Assembly: GCA_009773355.1 (NCBI GenBank)
Contig: WRPG01000050.1
Span: forward strand, 1 to 37,528
DNA length: 37,528 nucleotides
Direction: 5' to 3'
DNA from: Limisphaerales bacterium
GTDB lineage: Bacteria; Verrucomicrobiota; Verrucomicrobiia; Limisphaerales; SXTU01
The notes beneath the pieces are model-generated. The model was not told the origin of the DNA. It searched no databases and saw only the letters and a list, made by a program, of their open reading frames with translations. The translations under genes were made by a program, and so were the position numbers. How positions within the stretch are numbered: position 1 is the first letter of the stretch; each line of letters starts with the position of its first letter. This document shows, one piece after another, positions 9,035 to 21,316 of this stretch.

Positions 9035-10369
9035 CTAGGCGGATCCCGCGCGGCGCTCCAGCCGCAGCCGCGCCACGCGCATCCCGTCCATCGCCTCGAC
9101 GCGCAGCGAGAAGGCTTCGAGCCGGACCACATCGCCTTCCTTGGGAAAGCCCCCGAGCCGGTGCGTCACGAAGCCGCTCGTCGTGGTGATTTCCTCCTCG
9201 GCCAGCTCCTCGCCGACGAGTTCCTCCAGCTCGTGCAACGGCAGCGCGCCATCCACGTCCCAAATGCTCTCGCCAGACTTCTGAAGCAGCGGCTTTTCCT
9301 GGTCGAACTCGTCCTGAATCTGCCCGACCACCTCCTCGATGATGTTTTCCAGCGTGACGAGGCCGACGGTGCCGCCGTATTCGTCCACCACCACGGCCAT
9401 GTGCAGCCGGCGGTCGAGCAGCAGTTGCAGCAGCCGCTCCAGCCGCGCCGTGGGCGGGACGTAAATGATTTTGCGCGCGACCGCTGCCAGCTCCGCGCCG
9501 CTGCGGGCCTTCAGACGCATCGCGAACAAGTCCTTGATGTGGACGACGCCCAGCGTGCGGTCCACGTCGCCGCCCTCGCACAACGGGAAGCGCGAGTAAC
9601 GCGTCTTTTCCGCGATGTCCAGGCACTCGGCGATGCTCGCCTGCGTGTTGAGCACGGTGAGTTCCGCCCGGGGCCGCATCACCTCGCGCGCGACGCGGTG
9701 CCGCAGGTCGAGCGCGTTGAGCACGATTTCCCGGCCCAGCTTTGAGCCGCCGGCGTGGCGCTGGTTGGCGTCGAACATCAGCCGCAGTTCCTCCTCCGAG
9801 TGCGCGCCATCGTGCTCGGAGGAGACCGGAATGCCGATTTGCCGCAGCAGCCAAAGCGCGCTGTGGTTCAGCACCCAGATGAACGGATACGCGAGGACAT
9901 AGAACCAGCGCAGCGGATACGCGACCCAGAGCGCGCCCTCCAGCGGCCGCTTGATGGCGAGCGACTTCGGCGCCTGCTCGCCCGCGACGATGTGCAGGAA
10001 CGTGATGACCGAGAAGCCCACCGCGAAGGCGATGCCCGAACGCACGCGCTCCCACTCGTCCCCCGTCCAGCCCAGCCAGCCGAAGACCGGATGCAGCAGC
10101 GCCTCGAAAATCGGCTCGCCAATCCAGCCCAATGCCAGGCTCGCGAGCGTGATGCCGAGCTGCGCCGCGCTCAGATAGGCATCTAGGTTGTGCAGGATGT
10201 GCTGCGCCATGCGCGCGCGGCGGTTGCCCTGCGCGATGAGCGGCTGGAGCTGCGTGTCGCGCACCTTCACCAGCGCGAACTCCGCCGCGACGAAGAAGCC
10301 GTTCAACCCCACCAGCACCAGCACGGCCAGCACTTTCAGTAGGATGAAAAGGACTTCCTCGCCGCTCAC
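9035..10369 (-). CDS. CNNM/CBS-domain membrane protein (HlyC/CorC type), paralogue 1
   Basis: 444 residues from a GTG at 10369. The GTG overlaps the TGA of the upstream gene by four bases (GTGA), indicating translational coupling. The N-terminal CNNM/DUF21 region has several membrane segments and the family motifs NGFFVAAEFALV (24-35) and AGEQAPKSLA. Two CBS domains (about 205-330) and a C-terminal CorC_HlyC domain (about 345-435, including ATTSGFVTHRLGGFP-like sequence) follow. Such proteins are linked to divalent-cation (Mg/Co) transport or regulation, often misannotated as hemolysins. The exact substrate is not deducible. It is the last of three paralogues on this strand. Confidence 0.9.
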   Translation of the reverse strand: MSGEEVLFILLKVLAVLVLVGLNGFFVAAEFALVKVRDTQLQPLIAQGNRRARMAQHILHNLDAYLSAAQLGITLASLALGWIGEPIFEALLHPVFGWLGWTGDEWERVRSGIAFAVGFSVITFLHIVAGEQAPKSLAIKRPLEGALWVAYPLRWFYVLAYPFIWVLNHSALWLLRQIGIPVSSEHDGAHSEEELRLMFDANQRHAGGSKLGREIVLNALDLRHRVAREVMRPRAELTVLNTQASIAECLDIAEKTRYSRFPLCEGGDVDRTLGVVHIKDLFAMRLKARSGAELAAVARKIIYVPPTARLERLLQLLLDRRLHMAVVVDEYGGTVGLVTLENIIEEVVGQIQDEFDQEKPLLQKSGESIWDVDGALPLHELEELVGEELAEEEITTTSGFVTHRLGGFPKEGDVVRLEAFSLRVEAMDGMRVARLRLERRAGSA

Positions 10370-11352
10370 AGGCTCACCTCCCCGAACACGGCTTTCAGAA
10401 TATCCTCCAGGCTCACCACGCCCAGTTCGCTCCGGTCGCGTGCGAGCACGATGCCCAGCCGTTGCCCGCTGCGCTGCATCGCGCGCAGGGCGTCCTCCAG
10501 CCGCAGTTCTTCATCGAGGTAAAGCGCCGGTTGAAGGTAGTCCGCCGCTAGCTTGCGCTCGTCCACTTCCGCCTGGAACAACAGCCGCCGCAAACTCAGC
10601 ACGCCCACTGGGCGCGCCCGGCCCGTGCGCGACTCGCACACCGGCATCCGCGTGAACTGCCGTTGCCGGAACAACTCCATCACCTGCTTCATCGGCGTCG
10701 TCGTCTCGACGCTCACGACCTTCTCCCACGGCACCGCGACCGAGCGCACGGTGAGATTCTGCAAATCCAGCACGCGGTTGATCATCACGCGCTCCTCGCT
10801 GGTCATGCCCTGCGCGGACTCCTGCATGAGCCGGCGCAGCTCGTCGCGGTTCGCAAACAAGTGTCCCGTGAACACGCGCCCGCCCGTCCAGCGCAGCAGG
10901 CCGTCGCTCAAAGTCGTGGTCACGCTCACCAGCGGGCGCAGCAGGAAATGAATCAGCCGGAAGAGCGGCGCGACCAGCAACGTGAGCCGGTTCGGGTAGC
11001 GCGTGAACAGCATCTTGGGCAGCAGCTCGCACCAGACGTAGAACAGCAGCGCCATCACCAGCACCCAGAACGCGAACCAGCCCGGCGCATCCTTGAACTG
11101 CCGGTGCAGTGCATACACCACCAGCCCGCCGCCGAGGAAGTTCGCCAGCGTGTTGCCGACGAGAATGGTCCACAGGAAGTTCTCCGGCTGCTCCAGCCAG
11201 CCGTGCAGCAACCACGCGCGCCGCCCGCCCTTGCGCATCAGGTTGCGGATGCGCAGCCGGTTCAGCCCCAGCACGCCCGCCTCCATGCCGGACAAGATGA
11301 ACGACACCGCCACGCACAGCAGCAGCACCGGAATGAACAGCGCCCACCCCAT
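10366..11352 (-). CDS. CNNM/CBS-domain membrane protein, paralogue 2, lacking the CorC_HlyC domain
   Basis: 328 residues from the ATG at 11352. An in-frame GTG at 11355 was rejected because AAAGGAGG at 11366-11359 lies 6 nt before the ATG. The protein has an N-terminal CNNM region with segments such as FIPVLLLCVAVSFILSGMEA and LVGNTLANFLGG, and the motif CELLPKMLF. Two CBS domains (about 195-325) end the protein at EDILKAVFGEVSL. The CorC_HlyC domain found in both neighbours is absent, so the protein stops right after CBS2. Its stop overlaps the start of the next gene by four bases, and the two products may work as a pair. Cation transport or regulation is inferred from the family. Confidence 0.9.
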   Translation of the reverse strand: MGWALFIPVLLLCVAVSFILSGMEAGVLGLNRLRIRNLMRKGGRRAWLLHGWLEQPENFLWTILVGNTLANFLGGGLVVYALHRQFKDAPGWFAFWVLVMALLFYVWCELLPKMLFTRYPNRLTLLVAPLFRLIHFLLRPLVSVTTTLSDGLLRWTGGRVFTGHLFANRDELRRLMQESAQGMTSEERVMINRVLDLQNLTVRSVAVPWEKVVSVETTTPMKQVMELFRQRQFTRMPVCESRTGRARPVGVLSLRRLLFQAEVDERKLAADYLQPALYLDEELRLEDALRAMQRSGQRLGIVLARDRSELGVVSLEDILKAVFGEVSL

Positions 11353-11358
11353 CACGCG

Positions 11359-11366
11359 CCTCCTTT
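11359..11366 (-). promoter_or_regulatory. Strong ribosome binding site (AAAGGAGG)
   Basis: On the minus strand AAAGGAGG is followed by six bases and ATG at 11352. It is the clearest Shine-Dalgarno sequence in the window and fixes the start of paralogue 2. Confidence 0.8.
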
Positions 11367-11378
11367 CGGGACTCGGTA

Positions 11379-11452
11379 GGAGCGCGGACGCCCACGTCCG
11401 CAGTTCACAAGGCGCGGATGAAAACTGCTGCGGACGTGGGCGTCCGCGCTCC
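11379..11452. repeat. Palindromic repeat, family R2, copy 2 (25-bp perfect arms)
   Basis: Arms 11379-11403 and 11428-11452 are exact reverse complements around a 24-nt loop. They share the GGACGCCCACGTCC core with 1344-1399. The repeat lies between two genes of the same strand and could weaken read-through between them. Confidence 0.85.
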
Positions 11453-11457
11453 AGCCT

Positions 11458-11489
11458 TCATCTGTGTTCAATCTGTGTTTCATCTGTGG
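11458..11489. repeat. Short direct repeats of ATCTGTG
   Basis: TCTGTGTT occurs at 11461 and 11472 (within ATCTGTGTTT) and ATCTGTGG follows at 11482. The stretch overlaps the 3' end of paralogue 3 (stop 11482-11480), so the last codons of that protein lie in repeat sequence. Confidence 0.5.
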
Positions 11490-12724
11490 CTAGAAATCAC
11501 TTCCACCAGCACCTCGCGCACGCGCCGGTCGTCCGCCACCTGCGCCTTGAGCCGCACGCCGCCGAAGACCACCGACTCACCCGTCTGCGGCACGACTTCC
11601 TTCAGCGCCACGAGCAGGCCGCCCATTGTGTCCACGCCGGGCAGCTCGCCGAAGTCGGGATGCTCGCGGCGGAAATCCTCCACGCGCATCGTGCCGTTCA
11701 CGCGCCAGCGGCCCGGCGCGAGCAGCTCCATCACGAAGCCCGGTGCCTCGCCCTCGTTGCGGATTTCCCCGACGATGGCCTCGATGATGTCCTCCATCGT
11801 CACCAGCCCGGCGGTGGAGCCGAACTCATCCATCACAATCGCCAGCCCGCGCCGCTGCCGCTGCAACGCACTGAGCAGTTGCAGCAGGTTCATGCTCTCC
11901 GGCACGAACGACGGGAACTCAATCGCATCCGCCAAGTCGCCGTTCGGCTCCAGCAGCAGCGCGCGGCAGTTCAGGATGCCCACAATCGTGTCCGGCGATT
12001 CGTCGTAAAGCGGCAGCCGCTCGTGGCCGAACTTCCGCGCCGCCGCGACCATCTCCTCCACCGGCAAGTCATCGGGAATCGCCGCCATGCGCGCGCGCGG
12101 GCGCATCACGTCCTTCGCCGTGCGACGGTCGAGCTGGATGATTTGCAGGATGATTTCCTTCTCCGACGCCGCGAGCGTGCCCTGCTGGAACGCCAGCTCA
12201 ATCAGCTCCTTGTAATCCGCATCCGTCAGCGTGGCCTGCGCTGTGATGGACTTGGGAATCGCCACGCGCAGCAACGCCTCGTTCAACCGCTGCGCCACCT
12301 GCCGCAGCGGCCGGCTCACCCGCACGAGGAAAATCATCGGCCCCGCCACGCGCAGCGCCCACGCCTCCGGCATCCGCACCGCCAGCGTCTTGGGCACCAC
12401 CTCGCAGCCCAGCAGGATGAGCAGGAACGTGCCCACCAGCGTCAGGCCCAGATGCGCGCCCGTCACGCTCAGGCTCATCCACAGCGCGAGCGCGATGAGC
12501 GCGGAGTTGGCCAGCGTGTTGCCCAGCACGATGGTGGCGAGCAAGTCCTGCGGCTCGTTCAGCAGCGCCGCGACGGACCCGCCCAGCCCCGGCGACCGCT
12601 CGGCAAGCTGCCGCGCGCGCCACTTGCCCAGCGAGAACAGCGCCGTCTCCGCCAGCGCGAAGAAAAAGCTGGCCGCCGCAAAGCCGAGCACACCCAGCCA
12701 GGCGATGAACGGTGCCAGTGACAT
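11480..12724 (-). CDS. CNNM/CBS-domain membrane protein (HlyC/CorC type), paralogue 3
   Basis: 414 residues from the ATG at 12724; an ATG at 12736 would add four residues (MLPP) and is equally possible, since neither has a Shine-Dalgarno sequence. The CNNM region shows [33 protein letters not shown] and [12 protein letters not shown] domains lie at about 205-320, with [18 protein letters not shown] in the C-terminal CorC_HlyC domain. It has the full architecture of paralogue 1, unlike the shorter paralogue 2. It is transcribed divergently from guaB, about 100 nt apart. A role in divalent-cation homeostasis is the family expectation, not something the sequence proves. Confidence 0.9.
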
Positions 12725-12824
12725 TGGCGGGAGCATGACCGCGAGAAGGGGAAGGCAAAAGGCAGAAGTAGCCGATCCGGCACTTCCCGCTTGCCAGCCG
12801 CGCGCTCGGCGGGCATTTACTGGC

Positions 12825-14393
12825 ATGGCAAATTCCAACGCCGCCAACGCCCTCGACGCCGAGTTCTACCAGACAGCGGAACGCTTTTTTCCGAACCAGG
12901 CCGGCACTGCGCTGACCTACGACGATGTCACGCTCGCGACGCTTTACTCGGAGATCCTCCCGCGCGACACGCAGCTCGACACCACGCTGGCGGAGAGCCT
13001 CCAGCTCAACATCCCCATCGTTTCATCAGACATGGACACGGTGACGGAGGCGCGCATGGCCATCGCGATGGCGCTCAACGGCGGGCTGGGCCTGATCCAT
13101 TACAACATGCCGGAGAAACAGCAGCTCTCCGAGGTGAGCCGCGTGAAGAACCACGTCCACGGGCTGATCCAGGAGCCGATCAAGGTCTCGCCCGACCAGT
13201 TCATCGGGGACGTGCTCGCGCGCATCGAGGAGAAACGGTTTGCCTTCAGCACCTTTCCCGTCGTGGATGAGCAGGGGAAATTGCTCGGCCTCCTCTCCGG
13301 CAGCGTGGTCAAGCCGCGCTACGCGAAGCGCAAGGTCTCCGACGCGCTCACGCCGCGCGACCAGGTCTTCACGCTGACGGAGAAGAAGCTCGGCAAGAAT
13401 CCCATCGCGGCGGCGGACAAGTTCTTCAACGACCATCCCGGCATCCACAAGCTGCTGGTGGTGGACGACGAGGACCGGCTGCGCGGGCTGTTCACGATGA
13501 GCGACATCGAGCGCATCACGTCCGAGCGCGCGGCGCAGTTCAAGCCGGCGCGCGACGCGCAGTTCCGCCTCGTGTGCGGCGCGGCGGTGAGCGCGACGCG
13601 CAACGCCTTTGGCGAGCTGGACCGCGACCGCATCCTCGCGCACGTCGGCGGACTGGTGGAGCGCGGCCTCGACTCCGTGGCCGTCTCCACCGCGCACGGC
13701 CACACGAAAGGCGTGGGCGACACGGTGCGGATGCTGCGCGACGCGTTTCCGAAGCTGCCCATCATCGCCGGCAACGTCACCAGCGCGGCGGGCGTGGCGT
13801 TCCTCGCGGACGCGGGCGCGACCATCATCAAGATTGGCCAGGGGCCGGGTTCCATCTGCACCACGCGCGTCGTGGCGGGCGTGGGCATCCCGCAGCTCAC
13901 GGCGCTCTACGTCTGCTCGCGCGCGGCGGCGGAGAAGAAGGTCACGATCCTCGCGGACGGCGGCATCACGAAGTCAGGCGACATCGTGAAGGCGCTGACG
14001 CTGGCGCAGGCGGTGATTTGCGGCGGCGTGCTGGCAGGTTGCGCGGAAGCACCGGGAGAAATCCTCGAAATCGGCGGCAAGCTCTACAAGCAATACCGCG
14101 GCATGGGCAGCCTCGCCGCGATGAAGGCCGGCTCCGCCGCGCGCTACGGGCATTCAACCGCCGACGCCACGCGCAAGGTCGCGGCGGAAGGTGTCGAGGC
14201 GCTCAAGGAAGTGGCCGGCCCGCTGGAGCGCACGCTCGCCACGCTCATCGGCGGCATCCAGTCCGGCATGGGTTATCTCGGCGCGGCGAACTTGTCCGAA
14301 CTGCGCAAGCGCGCCCGCTACATCCGCGTCACGGCCGCAGGCGTGAAAGAGGCTGGGGCGCATGATGTGGTCGAGGTGAAGACGGGGAACTGA
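12825..14393 (+). CDS. guaB: Inosine-5'-monophosphate dehydrogenase
   Basis: 522 residues from the ATG at 12825. The enzyme oxidises IMP to XMP with NAD+, the committed step to guanine nucleotides, in the cytoplasm. Visible features: N-terminal barrel sequence LTYDDVTL and SSDMDTVTE, a CBS-domain insert (about 115-235), the K+/catalytic loop GPGSICTTR with Cys345, the flap YRGMGS, and the Arg440-Tyr441 dyad that acts in hydrolysis of the intermediate. After the dyad, [11 protein letters not shown] replaces the common EGVEGRVPYKG form; the glutamate is kept. A start far upstream in this frame was rejected as it runs antisense through the CNNM gene. It is convergent with the operon ending at 14474, with a hairpin between them. 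Confidence 0.95.
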
Positions 14394-14473: not shown

Positions 14474-14698
14474 TCAGAACTCCACCGCCTCGTTCGTCGC
14501 GCCGCACTGCGGGCAGCGCGACACCTCCACATCCTCGTCATCGGTGTAGACGTAGGCGCACTTGCGGCAGCGGAAAATCGTGTCCTCGGACGGCTCCGGC
14601 TCGAAGCTGCGGCGCCGGCGTTCGGCCAGCCCGGCGATGGCGGCGATGGCGGCCAGCAGGAGGGCGACGTAGGCGAAGATGAGGCTGTCGGCGGTCAT
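14474..14698 (-). CDS. Small membrane protein with zinc ribbon
   Basis: 74 residues from the ATG at 14698, which overlaps the TGA of the TonB-like gene (ATGA). One hydrophobic segment (SLIFAYVALLLAAIAAIAGLA, about 4-24) is followed by a basic patch ERRRR and a four-cysteine knot CRKC...CPQC (CxxC, 16 residues, CxxC), typical of a zinc ribbon or rubredoxin-like site. The topology suggests a soluble metal site next to the inner membrane, on the cytoplasmic side by the positive-inside rule. I do not recognise a named family. As last gene of the ExbB-ExbD-TonB-like operon it may be an accessory of that complex; this is inferred from linkage only. Confidence 0.75.
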   Translation of the reverse strand: MTADSLIFAYVALLLAAIAAIAGLAERRRRSFEPEPSEDTIFRCRKCAYVYTDDEDVEVSRCPQCGATNEAVEF

Positions 14699-15477
14699 TC
14701 CTTCCCCCCGGCAGGCAGCGGGACCGTGTGCCACTGAAACACGAGCGTGCCTTCCATCAGCGCGCCGTTGCCGCCGGCCTTCGGCACCGGGGCAAAGCGC
14801 AGGACGCGCGCCAGTTCGACCGCGAACTGGTCGGCGGCGTGCTGGGCGGGATTCCGCGTGCCGCCGCCGGCCAGCCGCGGGGTAAAGACCAGCCCCTCGT
14901 GGTTCACCAGCACCTGCACGCGCGAGTCCGCCAGCACGTCCGAGTGGCTCCTGGAGGGCAACGCGGGCGGGGTCATCAGCGGACGGGCGCGCACCGGCCC
15001 TTCGATGACCAGCCGCGAGGCCGCGCGCAACGCCGGCTGGAAGGCGGCGACGCCGGGCGCGGTCGCCGGCGGCTTGCGCGCCGGATCAAACACCGGGCGC
15101 GCCCCGGCGGACGCGACCATTGCAAACACACTCCCAAGCGACTGGGTCGGCTGCCCCAACGGCCGCTCCGGCGTGCTCCACTCGCTGAACTGGAAGCCGG
15201 GCGACTGCGGCAGCAGCCACGCCCCGGAGAAGCCACGCCGGCTGGCCATGGCGAAGAGCGTCGGGTCATTGAGCAGGCGGGCGTCCAGCGCCTGGCGCGC
15301 CAGGACCGGGTCGGTCAGCCACCGCACCGCCAGCGTTGCGGCGGCCGCAGGCGGGGGGGGCGCGGTCCGGGTGGAGCCGAGCCAGAGCAGCGCGAGGTGC
15401 AGCGCGAACACCGCAAGCACCACGGCGACCCAGCGCCGGGGCGACCACGGCGGAATGCTGGCGGCGGCACCATTCAT
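14695..15477 (-). CDS. TonB-like energy-transducer protein
   Basis: 260 residues from the ATG at 15477, overlapping the upstream exbD-like stop by four bases. A single N-terminal membrane segment (WVAVVLAVFALHLALLWLG) carries His27, corresponding to the conserved His of TonB; the Ser four residues before it is Val here. A proline/alanine-rich linker follows. The C-terminal part (about 180-260: VQVLVNHEGLVFTPRL, LVFQWHTVPLP) resembles a small TonB/TolA-like alpha/beta domain. It would link the inner-membrane ExbB/ExbD motor to the outer membrane. Assignment rests on position, length, topology and the His, more than on strong sequence identity. Confidence 0.65.
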   Translation of the reverse strand: MNGAAASIPPWSPRRWVAVVLAVFALHLALLWLGSTRTAPPPPAAAATLAVRWLTDPVLARQALDARLLNDPTLFAMASRRGFSGAWLLPQSPGFQFSEWSTPERPLGQPTQSLGSVFAMVASAGARPVFDPARKPPATAPGVAAFQPALRAASRLVIEGPVRARPLMTPPALPSRSHSDVLADSRVQVLVNHEGLVFTPRLAGGGTRNPAQHAADQFAVELARVLRFAPVPKAGGNGALMEGTLVFQWHTVPLPAGGKE

Positions 15478-15917
15478 GGCGCAGGGGTGGTGGCCGGCGG
15501 CGCGACGCGCGGACGGGTGGCCTGCAACAGCTCGCTGACCCCCGCCTCGCGCGCCAGTTCGCCGAGCCGGAAGGTCACTTCCGTGGGCGTCAGTTGGTCC
15601 GCGAGGATGACGAGGGTGAGTCGCGCCTGGCGGTTGCGTGCCTGCTCGGCGGCGGTGCGGAGCCGCTGCCGCAAACCGGCCTCCCCGATGACCTGGTTTT
15701 CGAAATAGAACTGTCCGCTGCGGTCCACGACCACGGCGACACTGGGGTTCGCCGTGCCCGGCAGCCCATCCGCCTGCGGCAGCTCGACCCGCACGCCGGG
15801 CGTGAAGACCAGTTGCGAGTTGAACGTGAGGAAAATCAGGACGAGGAAAAACACCCCCGCGAACGGCGCGGCGTCGAGCTGGCCTTTAAAAATGCGGGCG
15901 TGGCGTGGGAATCTCAT
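15474..15917 (-). CDS. ExbD/TolR-like protein without the canonical transmembrane Asp
   Basis: 147 residues from the ATG at 15917. It has a short cytoplasmic N-terminus, one membrane helix (VFFLVLIFLTF, about 22-32) and a periplasmic domain of ExbD type (VELPQADG, VAVVVDRSGQFYFENQVI, LVILADQLTPTEVTFRL). In ExbD/TolR the helix begins PxIDV, where the Asp carries protons; here the same place reads PFAGV, so Gly21 replaces it. An Asp at 15 (LDAAP) falls where ExbD usually has Asn. The gene overlaps the TonB-like gene and follows the ExbB-like gene by 103 nt. It is clearly in the family but its energy coupling is uncertain. Confidence 0.85.
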   Translation of the reverse strand: MRFPRHARIFKGQLDAAPFAGVFFLVLIFLTFNSQLVFTPGVRVELPQADGLPGTANPSVAVVVDRSGQFYFENQVIGEAGLRQRLRTAAEQARNRQARLTLVILADQLTPTEVTFRLGELAREAGVSELLQATRPRVAPPATTPAP

Positions 15918-15945
15918 GGGGGGATCGAAAACGGAGCAGGATCAA

Positions 15946-16010
15946 GATCAGGATTAAGAGCAGAAAGGAACCGCGCGCCCAGAGCGAAACTCCTGCTCGT
16001 AATCCTGATC
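15946..16010. repeat. Stem-loop between the exbB-like and exbD-like genes
   Basis: 15946-15963 pairs with 15993-16010 at 17 of 18 positions (GATCAGGATTA with TAATCCTGATC, then GAGCAG with CTGCTC) around a 29-nt loop. It occupies most of the 103-nt spacer in an otherwise overlapping operon. It could lower downstream expression or protect the exbB end of the mRNA; both are inferences. Confidence 0.7.
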
Positions 16011-16020
16011 CTCCGTGCCC

Positions 16021-16644
16021 TCATCCCTTCCTCCCATTCTCCCCCGTCACGAGGTTCAGGATTTCGTTCGAGGACTTCTCCATGTCGAGGACGATCTGGT
16101 TCACGCGGCTGACGAGGTAGTTGTAGCCGACGTAGCAGGGAATCGCGACGGCCAGGCCCATCGCCGTGCAGACCAGCGCCTGCCAGACGCCGCCCGTGAG
16201 CAGCGCCGCGTGGGCGAACTGCCCTTCCTTCTCCATCACGCCGAACATCTTGATGAAGCCCAGCGCCGTGCCGAGCAGGCCGAGCAGCGGCGCAATCTGC
16301 GCGATGGTGGCGATGAGGTTTAACTTCTCTTCGAGGCGCGGCACTTCCTGAAGGCCCGTGTCCTCCAGCGCTTCGCGCACGCCCTCGCGCCCGCGCTCGC
16401 GGCTGAGGATGGCGTTCTTCACCAGCCGCGCGACCGGGCCGGGCGTGGCGTCGCAGATCGAGAGCGCCTCGACGACGTTGTCGCGCTTGAGCACGGTGCG
16501 CACCCCCGCGAGAAACTCGGCGGAGTTGATCTGCGCGCGGTGAAAGTGCAGCACCCGCTCGATGAACACGGCGATGGCGACCGCGCTCAGGAGCAGCAGC
16601 AGCCACACAACCGGCCCGCCCGCGGAGAGTAACTTCGGCAGCAT
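16021..16644 (-). CDS. ExbB/TolQ/MotA-family proton-channel protein, variant
   Basis: 207 residues from the ATG at 16644, the first gene of the operon. Three membrane segments fit the family: VVWLLLLLSAVAIAVFIERV (about 11-30), IATIAQIAPLLGLLGTALGF (about 107-126) and ALVCTAMGLAVAIPCYVGYN (about 156-175). APLLGLLGTALG is the classic ExbB signature. In E. coli ExbB the third helix starts with GIAEAL, where Glu176 is functionally important; here it is GVWQAL with Gln155, while the threonine five residues on (Thr160) is kept. Together with the Gly in ExbD, the pair lacks both usual carboxylates. A longer in-frame start at 16866 would translate a repeat and was rejected. Confidence 0.9.
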   Translation of the reverse strand: MLPKLLSAGGPVVWLLLLLSAVAIAVFIERVLHFHRAQINSAEFLAGVRTVLKRDNVVEALSICDATPGPVARLVKNAILSRERGREGVREALEDTGLQEVPRLEEKLNLIATIAQIAPLLGLLGTALGFIKMFGVMEKEGQFAHAALLTGGVWQALVCTAMGLAVAIPCYVGYNYLVSRVNQIVLDMEKSSNEILNLVTGENGRKG

Positions 16645-16924: not shown

Positions 16925-19900
16925 GTGCCAAAGCCGCAGCATCCCAAAGCGTTTGCCTTCCAGCGAACAGGATTGTTCGCCGGTTTGAAGTCGTTTGAAG
17001 AGCTTGAGGCCCGCATCCTAAAGCTGCCTGACCAACAGGCGAAGGGCGCGGCGCTCGAAGTGTTCGCCGAGGCGTGCCTCGCGACGCAGCGCGTGTATCA
17101 GGCGCACGAAGTGTGGCCGGGGAATTCGATGCCCGCCGCACTGCGACAGAGCCTTCGCTTGCCGATGACGGATATGGGTGTGGATGGCGTGTTCGTGACG
17201 GCGGCTGACGAGGCGGTCTGTTACCAATCGAAGTTTCGCACGGGGCGACCTGCTCTCACTTGGACGGAGCTTTCGACGTTCTATGGCTTGGCGGATGTCG
17301 GTCAGCGCAGGCTTGTCTTCACCAACTGCGATGAGATTGCTCGCGTCGCCGAGGAAAGATTGGGAGCAATCTTCGTCAGAGGCAGCGACCTCGACCGCCT
17401 CACGCCGGAAGATTTTCAAATCATCGAAGCTTGGCTCGCGGAGCGGCCTGCCACTCCGAAGAAGAAAGACCCAAGGCCACACCAAATCGTCGCGCTGAAC
17501 GGCATCGTGGCCGGCCTGTCATGCGGGCCGCGCGCCACGGCGCTGATGGCTTGCGGGAGCGGCAAAACTTTGGTCGCGCTTTGGACCGCCGAACGACTCG
17601 GCGCGCGCACCGTGCTCGTTCTCCTGCCGTCGCTCGCGCTGCTTCGCCAAACGTTGCACGAGTGGCTCCACGAAACGAGTTGGCCGGACGTTCAGTTCTT
17701 GTGCGTCTGTTCCGACCCGACAGTTCAGCCGGAGGAGGATTCGCTGTTGGTTCGGCCTTCCGACCTCGACTTTGCAGTCACGACGCAAGCCGCCGATGTG
17801 CGCCGATTCCTTGAGCGTCCGACCGACGCGGTGCGGTTGGTGTTTTCCACTTATCAATCCAGCCAGGTCGTCAAAGCGGCCATCGCTGGCTTGCCACCGT
17901 TCGATTTCGGTGTCTTCGACGAAGCTCACAAGACCGCTGGACGCGACGGAATGAAGTTTGCGCTCGCGCTCAAAGACGAAAACCTGCCCATCGCTCGCCG
18001 ACTTTTTCTGACCGCGACGCCGCGTCACTACGACGTGGCAAAGAAGGACAAGTTCGGCGAATCGAAAGTCGTCTTCTCGATGGACGTGCCCGAAACCTAC
18101 GGGCAGGTCGTTCACCGGCTGCCGTTCAGCGAGGCTGCGAAAGCCGGCATCATCACCGACTACAAGGTCATCATCTCGGTCGTGACATCGGAGATGGTCA
18201 CCAACGAGGCACTGCGGCTCGGCGTTGTGCTGGTTGAAGGAGATGAAGTGAAAGCTCGGCAGGTCGCGAACCAGATTGCCCTCAAGTCGGCCATCGAGAA
18301 ATTCAACGTGTCGAAGGTGTTCACATTCCACTCCAAGGTGGACTCCGCGAAGTCGTTCACTTCCGCCGGCCCGGAAGGCATCGGCACGCACATCGAAGGA
18401 TTTCACTGCGCGCACATCGAAGGCGCGATGACGACCGCCTACCGCGAACGTCTCTTGCGCGAGTTCGCCGCCGCACCGCGCGCTATTCTCTCCAACGCCC
18501 GTTGCCTCACGGAGGGCGTGGATGTTCCCGCCGTTGACATGGTGGCGTTCCTCAGCCCGAAGCGGAGTCTCGTGGACATCGTGCAAGCGACGGGCCGGGC
18601 GATGCGTCTATCGCCCGAAACTGGAAAGCAATTCGGCTACGTGCTCGTGCCGCTCTACGTCGAGAAGGCGCGCGGCGAAACGATTGAGCAGGCTGTTCTG
18701 CGCAGCAACTTCGACGAGGTTTGGAAGGTGCTCCAAGGACTGAAAGAGCAGGACGACTTGCTGGCGCAAATCATCTCCGAGATGCGGATTGAGCGGGGAC
18801 GGACGGGCGGCTTCGACGACAGCCGATTCCGCGAGCGCGTTGAAACTCTCGGTCCCGAGTTGTCGCTGGAGACGTTGCGCCGCACCATCACGGCGGCGTG
18901 CCTAGAAGCGATTGGTGAACAATGGTTCGAGCGTTACGGGCAACTCGTCGCTTACAAACAGGAGCACGGGGGGTGCGACATGCCCGCGCGATGGGAGGAA
19001 AACCAAAAACTGGCGACGTGGGTGGTAAATCAGCGCGTGCTGCAACGTGACGGCGCGTTGGAGCCTGAGAAAGTCGAACTGTTGAACCGGCTTGCCTTCA
19101 AGTGGAACCCACACGCAAGCAACTGGCGGACGTATTACCTCGCTCTGCTTGAGTATCGAAAGCGATTTGGAAACTGCCGCGTGCCCCAAGGCTGGAACGA
19201 GGACAGAAAACTTGCCACATGGGTTTCCACGCAACGGAATAAATACCTCCATGGAAAAGCTTCCCGCGAGCGCATCGCGATGCTGGAGAAGATCGGGTTC
19301 GAGTGGGCCACTGGGCTCGCATCATGGGACGAGCGATTCGCCGAACTGTGCGCCTTCAAAGAGCGATTTGGTCATACCCGCGTGAAAGTTAAGTGGTCAG
19401 AGAACTCGCTTCTCGGGGCGTGGGTAGTCAGCCAGCGATACAAGCACCGGAGAAAGGAGTTGGGCGAAGAATACGTTCAACGACTGAACGCCATCGGCTT
19501 TGATTGGGATGGGCGAATCGCCGCAAGGCCAGTTCAGAAGACTCTCTCAGACCCGGACAAGAATTGGCACGATATTTTCGAGCGGTTCAAAACTTACGCC
19601 GCTGCGAACGGCGCGGACGTGGTTACGGTGGTGGACGAGGAGACGAAGAAGCTCAATCGCTGGATGCTTTATCAGCGGCAAGCGAAGAACCAGGGCGAGT
19701 TGAGCGAGGCGCGAATCAATGCTCTGAACGAAATCGGATTCGTCTGGCAGCGAAACGCGCGGCGCACCGGACCGCGCGCACCTCGTTCTCCGGCAGTCGA
19801 AGCTCCCATTACCCGCACTTGGGACGAGATGTTTTCAGAACTGGGGGACTTCTTCAAACTGCACGGTCATTGCAACGTGCCTGATGACTGGGCCGCACAG

Positions 19901-21316
19901 CCCGAACTTGCGCGCTGGGTCGCCATGCAGCGCCGGGCCAAGAAGCAGAATCAGCTATCGCCGGAGCAGGTGAACCGGATGGAAGAAATCGGCTTCGCTT
20001 GGAGCACGCATGACGGCGGTTGGGATGCGATGTTCGCGAAGCTGGTTGAGCACATGCGGCCGATGCACAATGGCAAGCCGCGCGAGGCACCCGCCAGCGA
20101 TGAACTCAAACGCTGGATGCTGACGCAGCGCCAGTCGAAGAAGCGCGGCGACCTCGAACCCGAGCGCGAGAAGCGGCTGACCAGCATCGGATTTGAGTGG
20201 GAGCCTTTCTCCGCGCAGTGGGAGGCCATGTTTACCCGCTTGCGCGCTTTCCATGCGGAGCGCCGCAACTGCCGCGTGCCCTCAAAGTGGCCTCAAGACC
20301 CGCAACTCGCGAGTTGGGTCGGCACACAGCGGATGCAGAAGTCGGAAGGCAAGCTGTCAGTGGAGCGAACCGCGAAGCTCGACACGCTGGAGTTTGAGTG
20401 GAATCCCAGACGAGGTGGTGCCGGCGGTGAACGCGAGCCGTGGGAAACAATGTTCGCCCAGCTTCAGGAATACCACCGGATCAATGAGCATGCATCGGTT
20501 CCCCAGACATACCTCCCCAACAAGAAGCTGGCTTGGTGGGTCACTACTCAGCGCCGGAAGTATCGGAAGCAAAAACTCGCCGATTGGCAAATCGCGCGTC
20601 TGAACGAACTGAATTTTGAATGGGACGGGGGACGCAAGGGCGGCAGACCGAGAACGAACACGCCTAAACCGCCGAGTGGTGAGAAGCCGCTTTCCGGCGA
20701 GAAATACTTCGAGACGATGTTGCAGGCGTTGCTGGAATACAAGCAGGCGCACGGTGACTGCCTCGTTCCGCAGCGTTGGAAGGAGAACCGCAAACTCGCC
20801 GAGTGGGTTTCAGCACAACGCATGGCCTACAACCGCGAGCGTCTTGACCCCGACCGAGTTCGACGGCTCGACGAGGTTGGCTTCGAGTGGGATCCCGTCG
20901 GCACACGGTGGGAAGAAATGTTCCAGCAACTCGTCGAATACAAGAAGCAGCATGGTGACACCAACGTGCCGCAACGCTCGGGCAAATATGCCGAGCTTGG
21001 AACGTGGGTTCGGAATCAGCGCGCTGCGAAGCGATACAATCGCCCGATCCTCGCCGAGCGCGGCAAACGACTGGATGAAATCGGTTTCGTCTGGCGGCTT
21101 GTCGAGCGGGACGCTTGGGAACGAATGCTGGAACGGTTGGTTGAGTTCAAAAATGTTTATGGCCATTGCAATGTCCCGCAGAAAGACGGAGTGAACAAAA
21201 GGCTGGGAAAATGGGTGAACACGCAGCGGACTCACTACAAGCGGGGAATGCTGAAGACTGAGAGACAAAGGCAACTGGAAGCCGTCGGTTTCGTCTGGAA
21301 CACGAAAGTCAGATGA
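16925..21316 (+). CDS. Nuclease-like/SF2 DEAH helicase with eleven C-terminal HA repeats
   Basis: 1463 residues from a GTG at 16925, the first plausible start after repeat R4. Residues 1-170 look like a PD-(D/E)xK nuclease: Glu45 in a helix, GVDGVF with Asp87 and CYQSKF with Gln101-x-Lys103. The helicase core follows: RPHQ (184-187), Walker A CGSGKT (210-215), DEAH (332-335), TAT (363-365), and QATGRAMR of motif VI. From about 664 to the end, eleven units of 65-72 residues match the helicase-associated (HA) pattern: W....F..L..Y...G...VP, then L..WV..QR, then R...L..IGF.W. No methylase, specificity subunit or other partner is adjacent. Sampled 60-nt lines gave 45-65% GC, against 77% in one sampled gltB line. 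The protein likely binds and unwinds DNA and may cut it; a defence or repair role is inferred. Confidence 0.85.
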   Translation: MPKPQHPKAFAFQRTGLFAGLKSFEELEARILKLPDQQAKGAALEVFAEACLATQRVYQAHEVWPGNSMPAALRQSLRLPMTDMGVDGVFVTAADEAVCYQSKFRTGRPALTWTELSTFYGLADVGQRRLVFTNCDEIARVAEERLGAIFVRGSDLDRLTPEDFQIIEAWLAERPATPKKKDPRPHQIVALNGIVAGLSCGPRATALMACGSGKTLVALWTAERLGARTVLVLLPSLALLRQTLHEWLHETSWPDVQFLCVCSDPTVQPEEDSLLVRPSDLDFAVTTQAADVRRFLERPTDAVRLVFSTYQSSQVVKAAIAGLPPFDFGVFDEAHKTAGRDGMKFALALKDENLPIARRLFLTATPRHYDVAKKDKFGESKVVFSMDVPETYGQVVHRLPFSEAAKAGIITDYKVIISVVTSEMVTNEALRLGVVLVEGDEVKARQVANQIALKSAIEKFNVSKVFTFHSKVDSAKSFTSAGPEGIGTHIEGFHCAHIEGAMTTAYRERLLREFAAAPRAILSNARCLTEGVDVPAVDMVAFLSPKRSLVDIVQATGRAMRLSPETGKQFGYVLVPLYVEKARGETIEQAVLRSNFDEVWKVLQGLKEQDDLLAQIISEMRIERGRTGGFDDSRFRERVETLGPELSLETLRRTITAACLEAIGEQWFERYGQLVAYKQEHGGCDMPARWEENQKLATWVVNQRVLQRDGALEPEKVELLNRLAFKWNPHASNWRTYYLALLEYRKRFGNCRVPQGWNEDRKLATWVSTQRNKYLHGKASRERIAMLEKIGFEWATGLASWDERFAELCAFKERFGHTRVKVKWSENSLLGAWVVSQRYKHRRKELGEEYVQRLNAIGFDWDGRIAARPVQKTLSDPDKNWHDIFERFKTYAAANGADVVTVVDEETKKLNRWMLYQRQAKNQGELSEARINALNEIGFVWQRNARRTGPRAPRSPAVEAPITRTWDEMFSELGDFFKLHGHCNVPDDWAAQPELARWVAMQRRAKKQNQLSPEQVNRMEEIGFAWSTHDGGWDAMFAKLVEHMRPMHNGKPREAPASDELKRWMLTQRQSKKRGDLEPEREKRLTSIGFEWEPFSAQWEAMFTRLRAFHAERRNCRVPSKWPQDPQLASWVGTQRMQKSEGKLSVERTAKLDTLEFEWNPRRGGAGGEREPWETMFAQLQEYHRINEHASVPQTYLPNKKLAWWVTTQRRKYRKQKLADWQIARLNELNFEWDGGRKGGRPRTNTPKPPSGEKPLSGEKYFETMLQALLEYKQAHGDCLVPQRWKENRKLAEWVSAQRMAYNRERLDPDRVRRLDEVGFEWDPVGTRWEEMFQQLVEYKKQHGDTNVPQRSGKYAELGTWVRNQRAAKRYNRPILAERGKRLDEIGFVWRLVERDAWERMLERLVEFKNVYGHCNVPQKDGVNKRLGKWVNTQRTHYKRGMLKTERQRQLEAVGFVWNTKVR
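18916..21310 (+). repeat. Eleven tandem HA-domain coding repeats (about 200-216 bp each)
   Basis: Each unit starts near a W/F-x-x-x-F/Y motif and ends in GF-x-W. Consensus landmarks (G-x-C-x-VP, LA-x-WV-x-x-QR, R-x-x-x-L-x-x-IGF-x-W) recur eleven times. Unit 4 (about 19561-19755) and unit 6 (about 20017-20205) are the most degenerate and lack the central Val-Pro. At the DNA level the units are diverged, so recent expansion is not evident. Confidence 0.8.

Follow-up and report, generated by a model that had tools for sequence, protein, structure and literature searches.

An order-wide operon of ExbB-like, ExbD-like, TonB-like and zinc-ribbon genes in Limisphaerales whose ExbD-like protein lacks the membrane aspartate

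The described systems closest to the operon studied here include the Ton system (ExbB-ExbD-TonB), the Tol-Pal system (TolQ-TolR-TolA) and GldLM/PorLM, the motor of type 9 secretion. Asp25 of E. coli ExbD is an essential residue. In GldLM/PorLM the axle helix lacks a MotB-type Asp, and GldL carries an essential glutamate. The membrane Asp of ExbD, TolR and MotB is regarded as indispensable, and in known motors it is "absolutely required for activity" (PMC12905483). Conservation in the E. coli Ton and Tol structures is concentrated in the pore (PMC12215075). The PVC tolQ/tolR/vWA force transducers (PMC12204202), like the operon described below, are uncharacterised motor-family operons of Verrucomicrobiota with a non-standard partner.

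The operon lies in the window, by which we mean the whole 37,528-nucleotide stretch of DNA that was analysed. It consists of four co-directional genes for an ExbB-like protein, an ExbD-like protein, a TonB-like protein (T) and a membrane-anchored zinc ribbon (Z), the last three joined by consecutive 4-bp overlaps (exbD/T and T/Z; Table 1). As in Ton, homologous ExbB and ExbD proteins are encoded side by side, and the third gene product begins with a membrane helix and ends in a putative TonB_C-type domain. Unlike Ton, the operon lacks Asp25 and often the equivalents of Glu176 or Thr181, has Z as a fourth gene and a highly conserved ExbB cytoplasmic loop, and has no receptor gene on its contig. 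The resemblance to Tol-Pal is one of profile scores: profiles of TolQ score best for the ExbB-like protein (TIGR02796, 2.8e-26 and 92.6 bits, far under the cut-off of 221) and those of TolR for the ExbD-like protein (TIGR02801, 26.8 bits, under the cut-off of 127.3), neither protein reaching the equivalog level. However, the ExbD-like protein is missing the Asp23 equivalent, and TolB, Pal and CpoB were not recognised among the recurrent neighbours in a neighbour survey not targeted at them. The PVC TPH-vWA family differs in keeping the proton-binding Asp and in having a vWA protein as partner, rather than a TonB-like protein and a zinc ribbon (PMC12204202). GldLM/PorLM shares the general architecture that would be expected here, a pentamer plus a dimer, but the acidic position of the operon ExbB is not conserved.

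Table 1. Features of the operon in the window and an example of a tandem-domain orthologue
Feature	Position	Strand	Description and basis
ExbB/TolQ-like subunit of a putative pentamer	16021..16644	-	207 aa, ATG at 16644; Pfam, alignment to PDB chains, orthologue starts
exbB-exbD gap	15918..16020	-	imperfect 18-bp inverted repeat, arms 15946-15963 and 15993-16010
ExbD-like subunit without membrane Asp	15474..15917	-	147 aa; Gly21; Asp15 at the Asn19 position; Pfam and alignment to ExbD chains
TonB-like protein (T)	14695..15477	-	260 aa; membrane helix 13-34 with His27; putative TonB_C-type C-terminus; 4-bp overlap with exbD
Membrane-anchored zinc ribbon (Z)	14474..14698	-	74 aa, ATG at 14698; 4-bp overlap with T; alignment, weak Pfam
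Tandem-domain ExbD example	L049:5481-6155	-	one helix, two periplasmic domains in a single chain

The open reading frame of the ExbD-like protein is real; its product has the N-terminal sequence MRFPRHARIFKGQLDAAPFAGVFFLVLIF and matches Pfam ExbD (PF02472) at 8.1e-12 and 45.8 bits, above the cut-off of 25.4. To identify equivalent residues, we aligned a family profile of the protein to the ExbD chains 7ajq_F and 6tyi_Y. The alignment pairs LDAAPFAGV with INVTPFIDV, which places Gly21 at Asp25 and Asp15 at Asn19. The Asp of the P-x-x-D motif (Asp25/Asp23) is therefore absent, and Gly21 stands there, as the sequence-only reading of the window had proposed while allowing that one substitution could be drift. 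The pattern across the order (scored as Limisphaerales/Pedosphaerales, Verrucomicrobiota) is far from drift: none of 107 readable orthologues has Asp or Glu at this column (68 Gly, 15 Ser, 14 Ala, 5 Cys, 2 Ile and one each of Thr, Val and Met), whereas of 37 ExbD paralogues sampled within the order, 36 carry Asp and one carries Asn. The replacements are mostly small (Gly, Ser, Ala or Cys in 102 of 107), which would be expected of an ExbD helix that remains packed inside a narrow pore. Each individual part of the operon belongs to a known family; we did not find the combination of four genes, the lack of the Asp throughout the order or its repeated change across the phylum described in the open-licence literature that we searched, nor any Asp-less ExbD family, although absence from that literature is weak evidence. 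Separately, one canonical-type ExbD paralogue (L238), encoded near an Asp-bearing ExbD, has Asn in place of the Asp (VPLLNLAF).

The ExbB-like protein matches Pfam MotA_ExbB (PF01618) at 8.1e-31 and 106.9 bits (cut-off 22.9), and its orthologues begin at the same Met. In the alignment to PDB TolQ/ExbB chains, Gln155, numbered from this start, occupies the position of ExbB Glu176, the Glu of G-I-A-E-A-L in TolQ/ExbB. Both channel-position threonines are present in the window protein, with Thr126 and Thr160 at the Thr148 and Thr181 positions; across the order, the Thr148 equivalent (GLLGT) is kept in 104 of 108 ExbBs, and the Thr181 equivalent is relaxed (Thr in 74 of 108). The sequence-only reading had taken Gln155 and Gly21 together as a hint that both carboxylates were lost as a co-evolved pair, to be checked by co-variation of the two columns. 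We found that the columns vary independently. The ExbB position is Glu in 24 of 108 operons of the order and in 4 of 51 operons outside it. Glu without the ExbD Asp occurs in 24 of the 108, and Asp without the ExbB Glu in 24 of the 51 other-class operons, so that either position is found changed without the other. Moreover, independent pairs on the tree showed no association between the two states, and no joint change appeared there. From these mismatched operons and tree contrasts, we reject a coupled loss of the ExbB Glu and the ExbD Asp.

For the TonB-like protein, Pfam TonB_C was matched weakly by 19 of 34 T orthologues (best 9e-5), the window protein itself giving no match, and a profile comparison of T to PDB TonB gave 0.0055. 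When the AlphaFold model of T was searched with Foldseek, TonB/TolA C-terminal domains ranked first at E ~0.3, none being significant alone. T does not carry the complete TonB SHLS motif (Ser16, His20): a His is present in the membrane helix, and the Ser position is not Ser. This His is replaced by Gln in 67 of 106 members of the order. A link between Asp loss and loss of the T His seemed strong among 13 other-class T proteins found by profile. In a wider set, with T located by position in more loci, His was present in about 13 of 23 T proteins from Asp-bearing operons and in 7 of 21 from Asp-less ones, approximate counts from helices read by eye, and we do not claim the link. The Z protein has a hydrophobic N-terminus, RRRR, and then FRCxxCxxVYTDDxDVxxSRCxxCG, of which the four Cys and VYTDD are invariant in an alignment of 37 rows. 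Its Pfam matches are weak and rubredoxin-like, and its position in the operon is unchanged in most orthologous loci. The order of hydrophobic N-terminus and Arg residues suggests, by the positive-inside rule, that the ribbon is cytoplasmic. The inverted repeat between exbB and exbD can form a strong predicted RNA hairpin (z -2.8), and the arm sequence has only one further copy in the genome.

Almost every homologous locus in the order has the genes in the same arrangement, and the ExbD-like protein was detectable in 56 of 58 related genomes searched; relatives with names are Pedosphaera/Limisphaerales and 'Verrucomicrobia subdivision 3' genomes. Across the phylum, 202 partly overlapping loci were sampled; the complete set of four genes was recovered by profile search in 154 of them, and the gene order is likewise maintained at this level. 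The operon identifies an uncharacterised envelope system that spans the phylum and is recognisable by its consistent set of four genes. Outside the order, the Asp column of 51 operons reads Asp in 26, Asn in 17, Ser in 4 and Thr, Ala, Gly and Cys in one each, with orthology less sure for the part of these operons in which no T or Z gene was detected. We then considered the history of this column on an ExbB tree of 98 operon rows and two canonical ExbBs. The order forms one clade with 100% SH-aLRT support. The Asp/not-Asp state changes 18 times on the best tree, an approximate count because this quick tree has many weak branches, and six independent contrasts fall on well-supported branches. 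Change counts alone cannot tell whether the Asp was gained or lost; its presence in the paralogues and in all characterised relatives makes loss the simpler reading. Since half of the other-class relatives keep the Asp, the complex may have started out as a true motor, and a mechanism that is invisible in sequence could operate in the forms without Asp.

The ExbD-like protein also varies in its periplasmic part. In nine loci of the order (L046-L054, the last being the least clear), the ExbD chain reads as a single membrane helix with a tandem pair of periplasmic domains behind it. A predicted model of a tandem ExbD (mean pLDDT 69) contains one fold repeated twice, with the ExbD periplasmic domain as its best PDB match. 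An ExbD with one helix for two domains would alter how the subunits of the complex add up.

We compared regional conservation of ExbB between closely matched genome sets of 9 and 10 sequences, a modest sample. In a canonical ExbB paralogue, conservation was highest in the pore (TM2 0.90, TM3 0.93, cytoplasmic loop 0.74), whereas in the operon ExbB it was highest in the loop (loop 0.93, TM2 0.91, TM3 0.87). This move of conservation from the pore to the cytoplasmic domain is the strongest hint that selection protects the cytoplasmic face and not the ion path. Because the Asp is absent order-wide from an intact, conserved complex, the complex probably has a different job, perhaps as a non-motor envelope bridge. 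On balance we lean toward an envelope-spanning complex of the ExbBD/TonB type in which proton flow via Asp25 is no longer coupled and which would act as a scaffold or signalling bridge. The complex would still assemble, with the ExbD helix in the ExbB pore, the TonB-like helix on the side of ExbB and the periplasmic domains pointing toward the wall and the outer membrane, and proton flow through the Asp25 site would no longer be used for work. A passive or switch-like bridge could then connect both the TonB-like arm and the periplasmic domain of ExbD with the conserved ExbB cytoplasmic face and the zinc ribbon; the putative assembly, stoichiometry and zinc-ribbon contact are read solely from gene order and conservation. 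More tentatively, and as a possibility that we would not yet call probable, a complex of the 5:2-motor family may have given up proton-driven work across the order to become a passive trans-envelope sensor or scaffold whose output is the ExbB cytoplasmic face and the tethered zinc ribbon, with several families having a one-helix, two-domain ExbD. A conserved, selected family with repeated loss of the Asp is a natural experiment: it can show what such complexes achieve when no protons flow, and whether the cytoplasmic face, the periplasmic domain or the TonB-like arm carries function on its own.

The sequence-only reading had offered either a motor with a different ion path, perhaps through Asp15, or a non-motor scaffold. 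The scaffold is compatible with our data. A re-routed motor, in which an ion gradient is still used and Asp15 or a polar residue of ExbB (Gln116 or Glu155) replaces Asp25, could explain why Asp15 is acidic in 103 of 107 orthologues of the order (95 Asp, 8 Glu) while much of the N-terminus is variable, and why ExbB Gln116 is near-invariant there. Such conservation indicates that Asp15 matters for something, and a different ion route may exist within the order. However, the position is also Asp or Glu in 29 of 51 operons outside the order, many of which retain Asp25, and relatives such as L087, L093, L098, L107 and L109 carry both residues; Asp15 is therefore older than the loss of Asp25 and did not arise as its replacement. 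Other relatives (for example L108, L114, L128 and L129) have neither acid, and the ExbB Glu position is not conserved. We conclude that Asp15 is not supported as a compensatory ion carrier, at least as a general rule, and consider a re-routed motor unlikely. The Asn19 position lies directly N-terminal of the membrane helix and its Pro, which suggests that an anchoring role at the cytoplasmic mouth, structural or electrostatic, is more likely for Asp15 than the relay of protons.

The Asp-less ExbD could instead pair with an Asp-bearing paralogue, giving one proton carrier per 5:2 complex, or dampen a paralogous motor. The genome encodes five canonical ExbDs, and the PVC group has pairs of different tolR-like genes beside tolQ-like genes (PMC12204202), both of which would allow mixing. 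We nevertheless regard it as improbable, because the operon has a single exbD adjoining its own divergent ExbB, every canonical ExbD sits beside an ExbB of its own, and the Asp loss is fixed across the order despite otherwise variable ExbD repertoires. The five canonical pairs also mean that other motors are available for standard Ton work; one pair (G000:C105:31569-35007) lies ~1-2 kb from a TonB-dependent receptor, and the standard Ton motor of the genome is probably there. Another idea is an unusual Ton/Tol system in which an outer-membrane partner is still energised: another motor would do the work, and the operon's complex would be no more than the arm. The putative TonB_C-type C-terminus of T and the five TonB-dependent receptors of the genome agree with it, but none of the five is on the operon's contig and T evolves fast, making it, in our view, quite improbable. 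Finally, variation at several motor residues (Asp25, the Thr181 equivalent and the TonB-like His) might reflect decay of the operon, or drift under relaxed constraint if it is dispensable. Purifying selection acts on all four genes, with dN/dS within the genus well below 1 (0.02-0.08 for ExbB, with one near-identical pair at 0.15; 0.08-0.32 for ExbD; 0.12-0.49 for T; <0.4 for Z) and ExbB the most constrained, and reading frames are intact in almost all genomes. Together with the retention and synteny described above, these values make decay extremely improbable, and we reject it for this order; the operon is intact, as had been supposed from the window alone.

The surroundings of the operon also recur, with an IMP dehydrogenase-like gene downstream and dUTPase-like and MoaE-like genes upstream (named by eye from sequence). 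We set this wider neighbourhood aside as a functional clue, because recurring neighbours indicate a stable position and not function. Elsewhere in the genome, a weak match to the ExbD periplasmic domain (28.8 bits) was found at G000:C157:7881-8120, inside a 2911-aa open frame. The window further contains, at 16925-21316, a DEAD/ResIII helicase of 1463 aa in which the helicase-associated (HA) domain is repeated 11 times, and three neighbouring CNNM/CorC-type transporter genes at 9035-12847 on the minus strand.
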